Virus record (IMG/VR): IMGVR_UViG_3300029448_000208
Span: 1-32,067 of that record
Reading direction: 5' to 3' (one strand)
DNA length: 32,067 nucleotides
Origin: a virus
Below are positions 2,787 to 17,012 of this stretch, one piece after another. The notes beneath the pieces are model-generated. The model did no database searches. It had not been told where the DNA came from and saw nothing but the letters and a program-made list of their open reading frames with translations. Made by a program: the position numbers and the translations under genes. How positions within the stretch are numbered: the stretch's first letter is position 1; every line of letters starts with the position of its first letter.

Positions 2787-2809
2787 AATTAAGTGCCACT
2801 ATAGGGAAT
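2787..2809 (+). promoter_or_regulatory. T7-type phage RNA polymerase promoter (left end)
   Basis: The -17 to -1 element AATTAAGTGCCACTATA is followed by GGGAATA, with predicted +1 at 2804. It matches the T7 consensus at 11 of 17 positions by eye, including the whole CACTATA initiation block and the GGGA start. Two further sites with the same AAGTKCCACT core lie at 9987 and 16990. The position between terL and the first early gene matches the left-end promoters of T7 relatives. Confidence 0.75.
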
Positions 2810-3441: not shown

Positions 3442-4161
3442 CTAGTCGTGTGATAAATGTTTGTTAAACTTATCTTCAATGCTTACAAGGTTGTCTTGAT
3501 ACTTAGGTTCTTTGTAGTTTTCCATTAATGAAAAAGGAATGAAAGCTACAAACTTAACCCAATTTATTTTGTTATCAAATGGTACTCTTTTTAAAACTTC
3601 ACGACTTCTAGGGTGTATCATAATGTACTCTGTTTTATTACGAAGTATCATACCATACAAAGGGTCTTCATTTTCAGGGTAAGCCATAATTAATCTATTT
3701 ACACAAGTATCATTTATTTGGTCTGTATTCGTAAGACCTTTACCAGAAAACACATAAACAAAACCACCATAAGCATTACCTGATACACAAAGATAACCAA
3801 ATACAGGCGACCAATCTTTTATAAAAAGTATAGGAACAGGTACATTTATTGGTTGGGTAGGGTTCAATGTACGAACATGTGTATTCTCTATTATTTGACC
3901 AAGAATAGGCAAATCTCTAATACCATCAGCTTGTTCTTTAGCTTGTATTTGATTAGTGTATGCTTTTTTGATTTTGTAATAATTATCTAATGTTATATTT
4001 TGAGAGTTACTAGCACGATATAAAACATTCTTATCTATACCTGCTGTATTAATAATAGTATCTCTACCATGCTCTTTAATTAGCTTATTAATAAAATCAG
4101 AAAATTCCTTTAACGAAGAAGGAGACGTACCCATAAAATCATCTATAGCTTTATTTATCAT
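3442..4161 (-). CDS. CI-like phage repressor with HTH domain
   Basis: A 239-residue protein, the only convincing minus-strand gene. Residues about 33-66 (IINTAGIDKNVLYRASNSQ and following helix) look like a helix-turn-helix of the CI/Cro type. The C-terminal part from about residue 85 (LPILGQI start) resembles the LexA/CI S24-like fold in layout, but I see neither the usual Ala-Gly cleavage pair nor a clear catalytic Ser/Lys pair. It is transcribed divergently from the gene at 4316 across a region with inverted repeats, as expected for a lysogeny switch. It probably represses lytic early genes and perhaps the phage RNA polymerase; this role is inferred from domain and context. Confidence 0.75.
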   Translation of the reverse strand: MINKAIDDFMGTSPSSLKEFSDFINKLIKEHGRDTIINTAGIDKNVLYRASNSQNITLDNYYKIKKAYTNQIQAKEQADGIRDLPILGQIIENTHVRTLNPTQPINVPVPILFIKDWSPVFGYLCVSGNAYGGFVYVFSGKGLTNTDQINDTCVNRLIMAYPENEDPLYGMILRNKTEYIMIHPRSREVLKRVPFDNKINWVKFVAFIPFSLMENYKEPKYQDNLVSIEDKFNKHLSHD

Positions 4162-4746: not shown

Positions 4747-4947
4747 ATGGCTAAAGCTAGATATACAATGTTTTACCCAGTTAAATTAATTTGTAGTGTT
4801 CTATTGATGTTCTGTTGAATAATGATATTTATAGGCTATCTATTTAAAAATTCTAAATGTTGTAGGTTGAAAACATCACACACAATATGTAGTAAAAATA
4901 GGGTAGTGCAGTCATTAGTAGTTGCATTACTGCAAGTTAGGAGATAA
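4747..4947 (+). pseudogene. Stop-interrupted small membrane-protein frame
   Basis: A 23-codon frame from ATG 4747 ends at TGA 4816-4818, and the same frame continues from ATG 4822 for 41 codons to TAA 4945-4947. The residues on both sides of the TGA are hydrophobic (VKLICSVLLMFC, then IMIFIGYLF) and would form a single membrane helix if joined. It may be a decayed gene, two peptides, or chance. There is no strong ribosome site for either part. Confidence 0.2.
4922..4935. promoter_or_regulatory. Operator-like palindrome TTGCA-N4-TGCAA, copy 1
   Basis: TTGCA-TTAC-TGCAA lies immediately upstream of the ribosome site of the gene at 4953, at the head of the block leading to the integrase. The same 14-base pattern occurs at 7262, 7313 and 9974. 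A wider repeat TGCAGT...ACTGCA overlaps it. Confidence 0.55.
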
Positions 4948-6984: not shown

Positions 6985-7068
6985 GGGCGAGTGGTGGAAT
7001 GGTAGACACGCCAGTCTTAGGAACTGGTCGAGCAATCGGTGAAGGTTCAAGTCCTTTCTCGCCTACCA
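6985..7068 (+). tRNA. tRNA-Leu (anticodon UAG), complete with CCA
   Basis: All arms can be folded: acceptor GGGCGAG/CTCGCCT (one G-T pair), D arm GTG/CAC with GG in the loop, anticodon stem CCAGT/ACTGG with loop CTTAGGA (anticodon TAG), a long class II variable arm with CGA/TCG stem, T stem GAAGG/CCTTT with loop TTCAAGT, discriminator A and encoded CCA. It reads CUA codons. It lies between int and the attP-like repeats. It may be a functional phage tRNA, part of the attachment site, or both. Confidence 0.92.
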
Positions 7069-7090: not shown

Positions 7091-7312
7091 TGTTGCACAG
7101 GGTGTTGCATTAATTAATCTTTGTTGCACAATAAATTGTGAAAAGGAGAGTTTTAAGGGAAAAAGCCTAAGGCACTAGTCTTAGGAACTCTTTCTCTTAA
7201 AATTATTTTCACAAGTGCAATTAGTTAGCTAATAGCAACACCTTTTTTTAAAAACTAATACTTGCACTACTGCAATAGTTACTGTGCAACGTGCAACAGA
7301 ACTAGTGCAACA
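7091..7312. other. attP: Probable phage attachment site (attP) with arm-type repeats
   Basis: Three direct TGTTGCA(C/T) copies (7091-7098, 7103-7110, 7122-7129) lie left of a core, and three GTGCAAC(A) copies in the opposite orientation (7284-7290, 7291-7298, 7305-7312) lie right of it. The core has CCTAAG (7166-7171) and CTTAGG (7180-7185) as inverted 6-base arms around 8 bases, and includes AGTCTTAGGAACT (7177-7189), a perfect 13-base copy of the tRNA-Leu anticodon stem-loop at 7013-7025. Arm-type repeats around an inverted core next to int is the standard lambda-family attP layout. The assignment is inferred from that layout. Confidence 0.55.
7262..7275. promoter_or_regulatory. Operator-like palindrome TTGCA-N4-TGCAA, copy 2
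   Basis: TTGCA-CTAC-TGCAA is about 77 bases before the RNA polymerase start. Its spacer resembles that of copy 1. It is within the region of arm-like repeats, so integrase binding is an alternative to repressor binding. Confidence 0.5.
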
Positions 7313-7326
7313 TTGCATTAGTGCAA
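7313..7326. promoter_or_regulatory. Operator-like palindrome TTGCA-N4-TGCAA, copy 3
   Basis: TTGCA-TTAG-TGCAA ends 25 bases before the RNA polymerase ATG and just before its ribosome site. A protein bound here would block transcription into, or translation start of, the polymerase gene. It touches the rightmost GTGCAACA repeat. Confidence 0.55.
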
Positions 7327-7351: not shown

Positions 7352-8329
7352 ATGTCTGATGAACCTAAAACATTGCTACAACAACAATTAGCCGAACTTA
7401 TTAAAGTTGGTGTTGGTGGTAAATTTAAAGATAGAAATGATTATGTAAGCCAAGTAACTAAAGAACTAGAGTTTGAGGAAGCTATGTTACGTGGTGGTAT
7501 TAATCGTTACAATAAAGCAGTAAATGACGCCAAAACTAAAGGCCAAGAAAGTACTACGATATATGGCCTAGTTTTACAGCAAAAGTACATCAATGAATTA
7601 TCTAATAAAATTAATGATGATGTTAAGATGATGGACAAAGGACAAGCAGGTAATTATCAAACTGCTCTTAAATTATTATGTCAATGTCTACCACCTACAG
7701 CTTTTGATAATGGTGTCTTTTTAGATAAGCGTATAAGCGTATGGGATACTTGTTCTCTGATTGCATTGAAGAATACTATTGATGGTATTTCAGATGAAAT
7801 AACAATGAACAAACTATCTATACAAATAGGTACTGGTTTAATGCACGAAGCAAGAATAACCAAGTTTAAGTATGACCATAAAGAACAATACAATAATGTA
7901 GCTAAAAAGTTATCAGGTAAAAACATACCCCAAAATACTAATAGGTATCAATACAAACAGAAGGTATGGACTTATTGTATGAATAAGCATGGTCTTGCTT
8001 TTAATGACTGGACTAAAGAACAAAGACTTCATTTAGGTGTAAAGATAATAGGATATATGGAACAGTTGGGTCTCATTAGACACCAACATAGAAAACTTAA
8101 TATAAAGAAAACTGTTATTTATATTGAAGCAACACCAAAGATTATTGAAGAAATAAAAAACTTTAATATTAAAAACGAAGCCTTGTTTCCAAAATTTTTA
8201 CCAATGAAAATGCCACCACGTGATTGGACTTCACCTTTTCTGGGTGGTTACTATGGTAAAAAATTCAACGATACAAATAACCCAGAGGAGATAGCACGTG
8301 CATTACAATCTAATAAAAGCGACAAATAG
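7352..8329 (+). CDS. T7-type RNA polymerase, N-terminal domain part
   Basis: This 325-residue protein matches the N-terminal domain of single-subunit phage RNA polymerases, which in T7 is about residues 1-325 and handles promoter melting, AT-rich recognition and early RNA. Recognisable segments are IGTGLMHEARITKFK, the block YKQKVWTYCMNKHGL, LHLGVKIIGYMEQLGL, and MPPRDWTSPFLGGYY near residues 285-301. The frame stops with TAG at 8327 just after this domain, and the catalytic domain is encoded in the +1 frame from 8298. The two may be a natural two-subunit polymerase, or one gene with a frameshift or sequence error. Repeats with operator character precede the gene. Confidence 0.85.
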   Translation: MSDEPKTLLQQQLAELIKVGVGGKFKDRNDYVSQVTKELEFEEAMLRGGINRYNKAVNDAKTKGQESTTIYGLVLQQKYINELSNKINDDVKMMDKGQAGNYQTALKLLCQCLPPTAFDNGVFLDKRISVWDTCSLIALKNTIDGISDEITMNKLSIQIGTGLMHEARITKFKYDHKEQYNNVAKKLSGKNIPQNTNRYQYKQKVWTYCMNKHGLAFNDWTKEQRLHLGVKIIGYMEQLGLIRHQHRKLNIKKTVIYIEATPKIIEEIKNFNIKNEALFPKFLPMKMPPRDWTSPFLGGYYGKKFNDTNNPEEIARALQSNKSDK

Positions 8330-9971
8330 AAGATACTTAGAAGAACTTAACAACAGATGGCATGAGTTTCCTGATGTTCCTAAATGTGTAAACATAATGC
8401 AAAAAACTGAATGGGTTATTAACTCACCAGTATTTGATGTATTAAACAAATGTTTAGAAGAAGATTTACCTTTAGGAAAATTACCGATTAATCCTCAAAG
8501 TATGGAACTTCCACCTAAACCTTTTGATATTGAAACTAATGTTGAAGCAAGACGTGAATGGAAAAGAAAAGCACAACGTGTCTATAAAAACAGAGCCAAG
8601 TCTAAATCTAAATACATTCAAGTAAAACAAATAATAGAAGAAGCAAAACATTTTGCAAATGAGGAAGGTTTCTTTTATCCATATCAACTTGACTTTAGAG
8701 GTCGTATATATCCAAAAAGTACACTCATGTCTCCACAGTCAGCAGACTACGCAAGAGCATTACTTAAATTTAAATTTGGTAGACCAATGACAGACAATGA
8801 AGCATTTGTAGATTTTGCTATTGCAGGTGCAGGATTATTTGGTGAAGTTGATAAAGAACAAATAGATATAAGAACTAAATGGGTAGAAGATAATAGTCAA
8901 AAATTTATTGACTGTGCTAACAAACCTTTTGAATACACATGGTGGACAGAAGCAGATAAACCATTTTGTTTTTTAGCTTGGTGTATTGAGTATCGAGATT
9001 TTGCTAATACTGATTTTGATGCAAAGTTTATTACAACTTTACCAATACAATCTGATTGTTCTAATTCAGGTCTACAACATTATTCAGCTATGATGAGAGA
9101 TGAAGTGGGCGGTAGTGCAACTAATCTTGTACCACAAAATAAACCTGCTGATGTTTATGGTCTAGTTGCTGATAAACTTATTATTAAATTAAAAGACAAT
9201 AATAAACCAATGGCTAAAAAATGGTTAGACTATGGAGTAGATAGAAAACTTTGTAAGAAACCTGTCATGTGTTTACCTTACAGTTTGACAATGTATTCTT
9301 GTAGACAATACTTACAAGACCATGTTGAAAAAGAATATGTTGAACGTAATAGACAGCATGAGTTTGGTGAAGATTTATTTCAAGCTACACAATGGTTGAC
9401 ACCTATTTTATGGAACGCAATTAATGAAGTTATTGTAGGTGCTAAAGAGATAATGAAATTTTTAAAAGATGTTTCAAAGTTAGTTGCTTCTGAAAATTTA
9501 CCTGTGGTATGGACTTCACCGCTTGGCTTACCAATTCAAATGCTATGTTATAAAAAAGAAAGTAAAAGAGTTAAGACACAAATGGGTGATAGTATAATTA
9601 AATTATCGTTACAATCAGATACAGATATAATTAATCGTAGAGCCGTAGCTCAAGCTATCTGCCCAAATTTTATTCATCACCTCGATAGTGCAACACTTAT
9701 GTTAGCTGTAGTTAAAGCTGAAGAAATGGGAGTTGATACTTTTAGTCTTATCCATGACAGCTTTGGTGTAGTAGCACCTGACAGTAGGAAAATGGCCACA
9801 GCATTACGTGATGCTTTTTGTGAGATATATAGCAAAGATGTACTGGCTAATTGGGCTATGGAAATGAAGCAAATGTTATCAGAAAAAAATCAAAAGAAGT
9901 TTCCTAATATACCAGAAAAAGGAAACCTTGATTTAGATTTAGTTAAACAAAGTGTGTTCTTTTGCGTATAA
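8298..9971 (+). CDS. T7-type RNA polymerase, catalytic (palm/fingers) part
   Basis: A 557-residue frame carries the whole polymerase domain of a T7-like RNA polymerase. Catalytic Asp253 lies in SDCSNSGLQHYSAMMRDEVGG (T7 Asp537), Lys321 in the O helix RKLCKKPVMCLPYS with Tyr328 (T7 Lys631, Tyr639), and Asp487 in LIHDSFG (T7 Asp812). The specificity-loop region is about 418-445. The GTG start at 8298 has AGAGGAG (8284-8290) seven bases upstream, a strong ribosome site, and overlaps the N-terminal part by 32 bases. Joined by a +1 shift the total would be about 872 residues, close to the 883 of T7. The product transcribes the phage middle and late genes. Confidence 0.92.
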   Translation: MHYNLIKATNRRYLEELNNRWHEFPDVPKCVNIMQKTEWVINSPVFDVLNKCLEEDLPLGKLPINPQSMELPPKPFDIETNVEARREWKRKAQRVYKNRAKSKSKYIQVKQIIEEAKHFANEEGFFYPYQLDFRGRIYPKSTLMSPQSADYARALLKFKFGRPMTDNEAFVDFAIAGAGLFGEVDKEQIDIRTKWVEDNSQKFIDCANKPFEYTWWTEADKPFCFLAWCIEYRDFANTDFDAKFITTLPIQSDCSNSGLQHYSAMMRDEVGGSATNLVPQNKPADVYGLVADKLIIKLKDNNKPMAKKWLDYGVDRKLCKKPVMCLPYSLTMYSCRQYLQDHVEKEYVERNRQHEFGEDLFQATQWLTPILWNAINEVIVGAKEIMKFLKDVSKLVASENLPVVWTSPLGLPIQMLCYKKESKRVKTQMGDSIIKLSLQSDTDIINRRAVAQAICPNFIHHLDSATLMLAVVKAEEMGVDTFSLIHDSFGVVAPDSRKMATALRDAFCEIYSKDVLANWAMEMKQMLSEKNQKKFPNIPEKGNLDLDLVKQSVFFCV

Positions 9972-9973
9972 AC

Positions 9974-9987
9974 TTGCACTTGTGCAA
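9974..9987. promoter_or_regulatory. Operator-like palindrome TTGCA-N4-TGCAA, copy 4
   Basis: TTGCA-CTTG-TGCAA starts two bases after the polymerase stop and abuts the first base of the phage promoter at 9987. With the outer bases the arms are TTGCAC and GTGCAA. It is far from int, which favours a transcriptional operator over an integrase arm site for this family. Confidence 0.55.
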
Positions 9988-10008
9988 ATAAAGTTCCACT
10001 TATGACTA
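9987..10008 (+). promoter_or_regulatory. Phage RNA polymerase promoter before the DNA-metabolism genes
   Basis: AATAAAGTTCCACTTAT is followed by GACTA, with predicted +1 at 10004. It shares the AAGTKCCACT core and the upstream A/T block with the promoters at 2787 and 16990. The initiation block TAT-GAC is less T7-like than in the left-end site. It stands directly before the gp2.5-like gene, where T7 has class II promoters. Confidence 0.55.
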
Positions 10009-16748: not shown

Positions 16749-16995
16749 TAACGATAGAAACGACAAGCATGGTGATAAGTTAGAAAACCATCAAAACATT
16801 GCTAGATTATGGACTAGCTACATACAAAATAAAACCTCTACAGATTTAATTATTCTTCCTGAAGATGTTGCTAATCTTATGGCCTTATTAAAGATAGCTA
16901 GAACACAAGCAGGACAGCATAACATTGATGACTACGTAGATGCTTGTGGTTACTCTGCAATAGCAGGTGAAATAGCACAGAGGAAAAGTGAATAA
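16705..16995 (+). CDS. DUF6378-like phage protein
   Basis: A 96-residue protein, taking ATG 16705 because GGAG lies nine bases before it and the conserved sequence begins there; the frame itself extends upstream to 16657. The pattern NDRNDKHGDKLENHQNIARLW, DVANLMALLKIART and DDYVDACGYSAIAGE matches a widespread small phage family named DUF6378. Its function is unknown; the conserved acidic/His pattern recalls MazG-like nucleotide hydrolases but this is not established. It overlaps the exonuclease gene by 44 bases. Confidence 0.7.
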   Translation: MNTTEILETTKNLVSNDRNDKHGDKLENHQNIARLWTSYIQNKTSTDLIILPEDVANLMALLKIARTQAGQHNIDDYVDACGYSAIAGEIAQRKSE

Positions 16996-17012
16996 GTTCC
17001 ACTTTAGGAGAA
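16990..17012 (+). promoter_or_regulatory. Phage RNA polymerase promoter before the virion genes
   Basis: GAATAAGTTCCACTTTA is followed by GGAGAAAA, with predicted +1 at 17007. It matches the left-end promoter (2787) at 13 of 17 positions. It overlaps the end of the DUF6378-like gene and stands before the structural block, where T7 has its class III promoters. Its GGAG also serves as the ribosome site of the gene at 17017, giving an almost leaderless-length 5' end of about 10 bases. Confidence 0.65.

Follow-up and report, generated by a model that had tools for sequence, protein, structure and literature searches.

T7-type RNA polymerases are the textbook one-chain RNA polymerases, with RNAPII of phage N4 as the well-known natural exception. 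The virus record analysed here (32,067 bases; "the window" is this whole stretch) contains a polymerase of this type in two overlapping open reading frames, which raises the question of how the enzyme is made. An earlier note on the sequence had offered three options: a natural two-subunit polymerase, +1 frameshifting near an AAAA run, or an artefact of one base. The comparison with related phages strongly favours the first option, with 73 split junctions, separate starts and selection on both halves, and a heterodimeric T7-family polymerase is very probably the best explanation of the two genes.

Two genes for one polymerase

The first ORF starts with ATG at 7352 and ends with TAG at 8327-8329, the second starts with GTG at 8298 and ends with TAA at 9969-9971 (Table 1). 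All coordinates given in the earlier note could be confirmed in the sequence: both ORFs with their 32-base overlap and +1 offset, the AGAGGAG seven bases ahead of the GTG, the in-frame stop of the second frame (TAG 8292-8294) and the AAAA run (8315-8318). Pfam matches were RPOL_N (PF14700, 4e-12) in the first ORF and RNA_pol (PF00940, 9e-95) in the second. In a comparison with PHROG 414, the profile of the whole T7-like polymerase with 816 positions, the ORFs covered positions 4-259 and 264-814, respectively, thus almost no polymerase sequence is missing at the join. Judged by sequence, both ORFs combined are a complete, full-length T7-type polymerase of 882 amino acids.

The large subunit contains the catalytic domain of the T7-like family with DxxGR (DFRGR), motif A (D253, QSDCSNSGLQ), motif B (K320..Y328, KKPVMCLPY) and motif C (HDSFG). 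The RPOL_N domain with promoter-side elements is present as well, the intercalating-hairpin region being visible in the structure model and the promoter contacts being predicted. What differs from the family is the single polypeptide, since two ORFs with their own starts were found in 73 of 73 junctions.

Table 1. Polymerase genes, their junction and promoter-like sites in the window
Feature	Position	Strand	Basis
RNA polymerase small subunit (N-terminal domain), 325 aa	7352..8329	+	ORF, RPOL_N, PHROG 414, T7 alignment, AlphaFold/Foldseek
RNA polymerase large subunit (thumb, palm, fingers), 557 aa	8298..9971	+	ORF, RNA_pol, PHROG 414, motifs, AlphaFold
Shine-Dalgarno AGAGGAG of the large subunit	8284..8290	+	direct reading; Shine-Dalgarno kept among relatives
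Gene overlap, 32 bases, +1 frame	8298..8329	+	length and frame differ between relatives
Promoter-like site AAGTTCCACTTA between polymerase and SSB genes	9991..10002	+	position conserved across many relatives from several subgroups; role inferred
Promoter-like site AAGTGCCACTATAGGGA, head of early region	2791..2807	+	exact in HTVC041P (L113) and L001
Promoter-like site AAGTTCCACTTTAGG before ORF 17017	16994..17008	+	motif match

Phage affiliation and gene neighbourhood

Among named relatives, Pelagibacter phage HTVC041P is the nearest (87% DNA identity), and the window agrees with it in gene order, the integrase gene and a tRNA-Leu being located upstream of the polymerase and the SSB gene downstream. 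Endonuclease I, lysozyme and primase, also downstream, were assigned by position and synteny with HTVC041P. The window therefore has the arrangement of Group III (Stopavirus/Fussvirus) phages with a split polymerase: adjacent RNAP ORFs, integrase upstream, and SSB, endonuclease I, lysozyme and primase downstream.

The tRNA-Leu (6985-7068) adjoins the integrase gene; for related phages, integration at the host tRNA-Leu is described in PMC6811365. A leftward ORF on the minus strand (3442-4161, 239 amino acids) has no Pfam match and is a candidate for the repressor. In HTVC041P and HTVC011P, too, a gene of comparable length runs leftward at roughly this position.

Conservation of the split

Related loci were collected from marine viral contigs, isolate records and SAR11 genomes. 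Comparison of the relatives' polymerases, a kind of check proposed in the earlier note, revealed a split polymerase in 73 of the 74 related phage sequences compared, the HTVC011P record being the only continuous one. The 73 junctions are the loci that are readable on both sides of the junction, and they comprise 55 distinct 80-base junctions. Among the split members are the isolates HTVC041P, HTVC025P and Eyrgjafa, the fosmid genome S30C28 and prophages in SAR11 single-cell genomes and MAGs.

The gene is divided at the same point in all 73 junctions, while the layout of the junction drifts. Relative to the first base of the start of the large-subunit (C) gene, the stop of the small-subunit (N) gene was found at +29 (18 loci), +26 (21), +17 (2), +8 (3), -2 (17), -4 (10) and -12 (1), and all three frame relations of N and C occur: +1 (in the +29, +26, +17, +8 and -4 junctions), +2 and 0. 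In HTVC025P the two genes are 497 bases apart, with the N stop 500 bases ahead of the C start. Two small ORFs of 48 and 85 amino acids are located between them (L044:2646-3046), and a search for a group I intron or another RNA element between the HTVC025P halves gave no Rfam match.

The start codon of the C gene is kept in all junctions (64 ATG, 9 GTG), and in 72 of the 73 it is preceded at proper spacing by a Shine-Dalgarno sequence of at least five bases, compared to a background of 64 of 6119 internal ATG/GTG codons (1.0%) in the same loci. Both elements are retained even where the tail sequence of the small subunit is quite unrelated, and their conservation fits the need of two separately started proteins. 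The overlapping and the TAATG junctions suggest that translation of both genes is coupled. In several pairs dN/dS (NG86) was about 0.04-0.21 for either gene, which indicates purifying selection on both halves. Outside this group, a spread sample of 60 matching phage records contained no other split annotated at the same place, although a split elsewhere could escape annotation.

The HTVC011P record and motif variants

The HTVC011P record (L046, KC465900) has a joined frame with one base fewer at the junction. Five contigs with a protein about 99% identical to that of HTVC011P (L050-L053, L068) are split and read AGTAACAGAAG where HTVC011P reads AGTACAGAAG. HTVC011P is an exception in the literature because of this one-base difference, and its annotation with a single-chain RNA polymerase probably rests on that base. 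Either a record error or an isolated mutation appears to be behind the join. Since the record would encode one chain, a fused form may be viable. HTVC011P was also considered as a fused relative or possible re-fusion; this was dropped because the contigs with nearly identical protein carry the extra base.

In HTVC011P-like polymerases (L050-L058, L062-L064, L071 and L046) the DxxGR motif reads DFRFR or DFRAR instead of DFRGR, and DFRSR was found in other members, which is unusual for a motif regarded as fixed. A sequencing error as the source of DFRFR in HTVC011P was ruled out, as this variant is common to many contigs.

Position of the break and structure models

Alignment with T7 RNA polymerase assigns the small subunit to T7 residues 112-288 and the large subunit to residues 312-881. 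One-chain relatives have a loop of 8-10 residues that links GGYx to LVK, and the new start of the split forms is located inside that loop. The break thus maps to this loop, which corresponds to T7 residues ~288-295 and lies there between GGYW and LVR. The earlier note had proposed a split at the boundary of N-terminal domain and core, which was borne out, but its placement at T7 residue 325 was not, since the alignment puts the break at ~288-295; the 325 amino acids of the first ORF reflect its own numbering together with a short, variable stretch that follows GGYY. Across the relatives the end of the small subunit beyond GGYYG is variable, and the large subunit opens with a near-invariant MHYN.

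AlphaFold models were computed from alignments of proteins from the window and related loci only. The model of the large subunit (pLDDT 89) matched T7 RNAP with a TMq of 0.86-0.87. The small-subunit model (m7019a61bd5b7) has modest confidence (pLDDT 69) with residues 274-325 unordered when modelled alone, and its best matches were T7 RNAP structures (Foldseek E 1e-7). In this model a strand pair (residues 242-260) aligns with the intercalating-hairpin region of T7, therefore promoter recognition would be shared by both chains. The lone small-subunit model is, at low confidence, closer to the elongation conformation of T7 (TMq up to 0.60) than to the promoter-bound one (0.36).

Promoter-like and palindromic sites

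The promoter-like motif AAGTKCCACTWTNRG, which is similar to the CACTATAGG core in T7 and SP6 promoters, has copies at positions 2791 and 16994 of the window and a weaker one at 9991. In six relatives the pattern yielded 16 sites, all of them on the coding strand and on one strand per record, and the reversed control pattern yielded 0 sites in the same six relatives. In the window alone a looser form of the motif was not above chance, thus the weight for the promoter-like sites lies on their conservation in relatives. When the entire window was searched for direct repeats that might mark promoters, mostly coding repeats were returned, with one family leading to the promoter-like motif.

Palindromic sites of the type TTGCACTAGTGCAA are located at 4922-4935, 7207-7220, 7262-7275, 7297-7310, 7313-7326 and 9974-9987. 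They are found ahead of both the integrase operon and the polymerase genes, and beside the promoter-like site that follows the latter. Their number (6 versus 2.1 expected) was reached in 0 of 100 shuffles. They are possible operators of a lysogeny repressor.

Alternative explanations

A programmed +1 frameshift within the overlapping bases, such as one at AAA TAG A yielding ...SDK-RRYLEE, would generate one chain and make the two ORFs by-products. Such a shift agrees with the +1 relation of the junctions listed above, and a +1 slip at the stop of the window would result in nearly the protein of the HTVC011P record. However, 17 junctions, in which the stop overlaps the start (TAATG), would require a -1 slip and locus L007, with frame 0, stop read-through, while the halves of HTVC025P cannot be joined by a slip at all. 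A programmed shift would go along with a constant frame relation and a slip site, but frames and stop contexts varied, the codons ahead of the stop differ (AAA, CAA, AAG, TAT), and Shine-Dalgarno sequence and start are kept although frameshifting requires neither. The +2 and 0 frames, the stop-then-start junctions and the 497-base separation in relatives exclude +1 frameshifting near the AAAA run as a clade-wide mechanism, and we consider a frameshift very unlikely. An assembly or sequencing error that added one base to a continuous gene would also explain the two frames, since a single-base change would join them and the HTVC011P record is joined by exactly one absent base. Yet 73 separate junctions with several architectures are all split, the junction of the window is common to relatives with 87-99% identity, and the fused HTVC011P record stands alone against the five contigs with ~99% identical protein. 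Finding the same split with varied junctions in separately assembled or sequenced loci excludes the one-base artefact, which has next to no probability.

Decay of the polymerase into a two-piece pseudogene could be read from the HTVC011P group, in which the normally fixed G of DxxGR is changed to F or A. This explanation is highly improbable given the low dN/dS in both halves, the lack of internal stops, the intact motifs A-C, the retained translation start and the promoter-like sites kept downstream. The N subunit could also be an initiation factor of the separable kind, comparable to sigma or yeast Mtf1, that joins for promoter recognition, is released or replaced during elongation and is recycled or exchanged between polymerase cores. 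In T7 the N domain contacts the promoter and changes its fold at the transition to elongation, and the break is located precisely where the N domain meets the core, both of which would suit such a factor. However, the N fragment is required for elongation in nicked T7 RNAP (reviewed in PMC4299499), the similarity of the lone N model to the T7 elongation form hints that N stays on, and a second N gene was not seen among the annotated ORFs of the window. A dissociable sigma-like small subunit is therefore unlikely; if true, it would constitute a T7-type enzyme whose promoter recognition can be separated from elongation.

Discussion

The reading we prefer is a heterodimer: the window phage would be a temperate SAR11-type autographivirus with a two-subunit T7-family RNA polymerase. 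Both polymerase genes would be located on one mRNA, from which the N-terminal-domain subunit would be translated first, and ribosomes would re-start or start independently at the GTG behind AGAGGAG to make the catalytic subunit. The 32-base overlap would couple translation of both subunits, keeping their amounts similar, and the two chains would assemble without a covalent link across the loop. The heterodimer would then transcribe from the phage's own promoters. The sequence directly shows the split, its conservation, separate start signals, selection acting on both halves and a complete enzyme once the parts are joined; translation coupling, assembly, activity and promoter use are what we infer from it.

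The split probably goes back to a single event, in which a one-chain polymerase was divided in an ancestor shared by the Stopavirus/Fussvirus and Chosvirus groups, which have about 42% identity. In a quick maximum-likelihood tree of the catalytic part (long branches; SH-aLRT support without bootstrap) all split forms are one clade (SH-aLRT 97), with the one-chain enzymes outside and the HTVC011P record nested inside. This clade, the common break point and the MHYN start make a single origin likely, and the two-subunit design appears to be old and to have been maintained.

A natural heterodimer of the T7 family has been shown biochemically with RNAPII of N4 (gp15 and gp16; Schitoviridae), which is truncated (673 amino acids) and recruited by gp2 (PMC4496689). 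The window enzyme is similar in its two adjacent genes of the T7 family, but it is full length. In addition, the N4 break is located between DxxGR and motif A, gp15 carrying DKRGR and gp16 starting at about position 168 of the large subunit, whereas in the window DFRGR and motif A are both part of the large subunit and the break is ~160 residues earlier. Since the two splits are at different sites and in different families, they would be of independent origin. The one-chain polymerases of T7 and Pelagivirus (HTVC019P, HTVC031P, Eistla) have domains and motifs in common with the split form, and the Pelagivirus genes have the equal genome place before SSB, endonuclease I and lysozyme; they differ in being one chain with an unbroken GGYxx...LVK loop. 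Engineered split T7 RNAP works as fragments, with five seams described by Segall-Shapiro et al. 2014 (PMC4299498), and a split RNAP is also carried by a deposited T7 phage (MG833025). Thus, T7 RNAP functions as fragments and a phage can carry such an RNAP, but these splits are artificial and the break in MG833025, at 601, is elsewhere than the pelagiphage one.

The fact of fragmentation is already known, having been published in 2019 for HTVC019Pvirus group III pelagiphages and uv-Fonsiphage-EPL (Chen et al. 2019, PMC6811365). In the available part of that paper it is mentioned briefly, in one sentence or short paragraph, as an interrupted gene, with subunits, ribosome sites, frames, mechanism and a comparison with N4 not given there. 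Within a partial coverage of the literature, the present analysis interprets the two genes as an enzyme of two independently translated subunits with a distinct break point. It also removes the only exception, HTVC011P, by tracing it to one base, and extends the split to the Chosvirus group.

A second lineage, the SAR11 ocean phages, would thus have fixed a different break in a T7-type polymerase, exactly between N-terminal domain and core, while the junction drifted freely. This would be a clear example of gene fission with a definable position on a phylogenetic tree, and it would provide synthetic biology with a natural parts list for split polymerases. It would also be a test case for whether the switch from initiation to elongation is affected by covalent attachment of the N domain.
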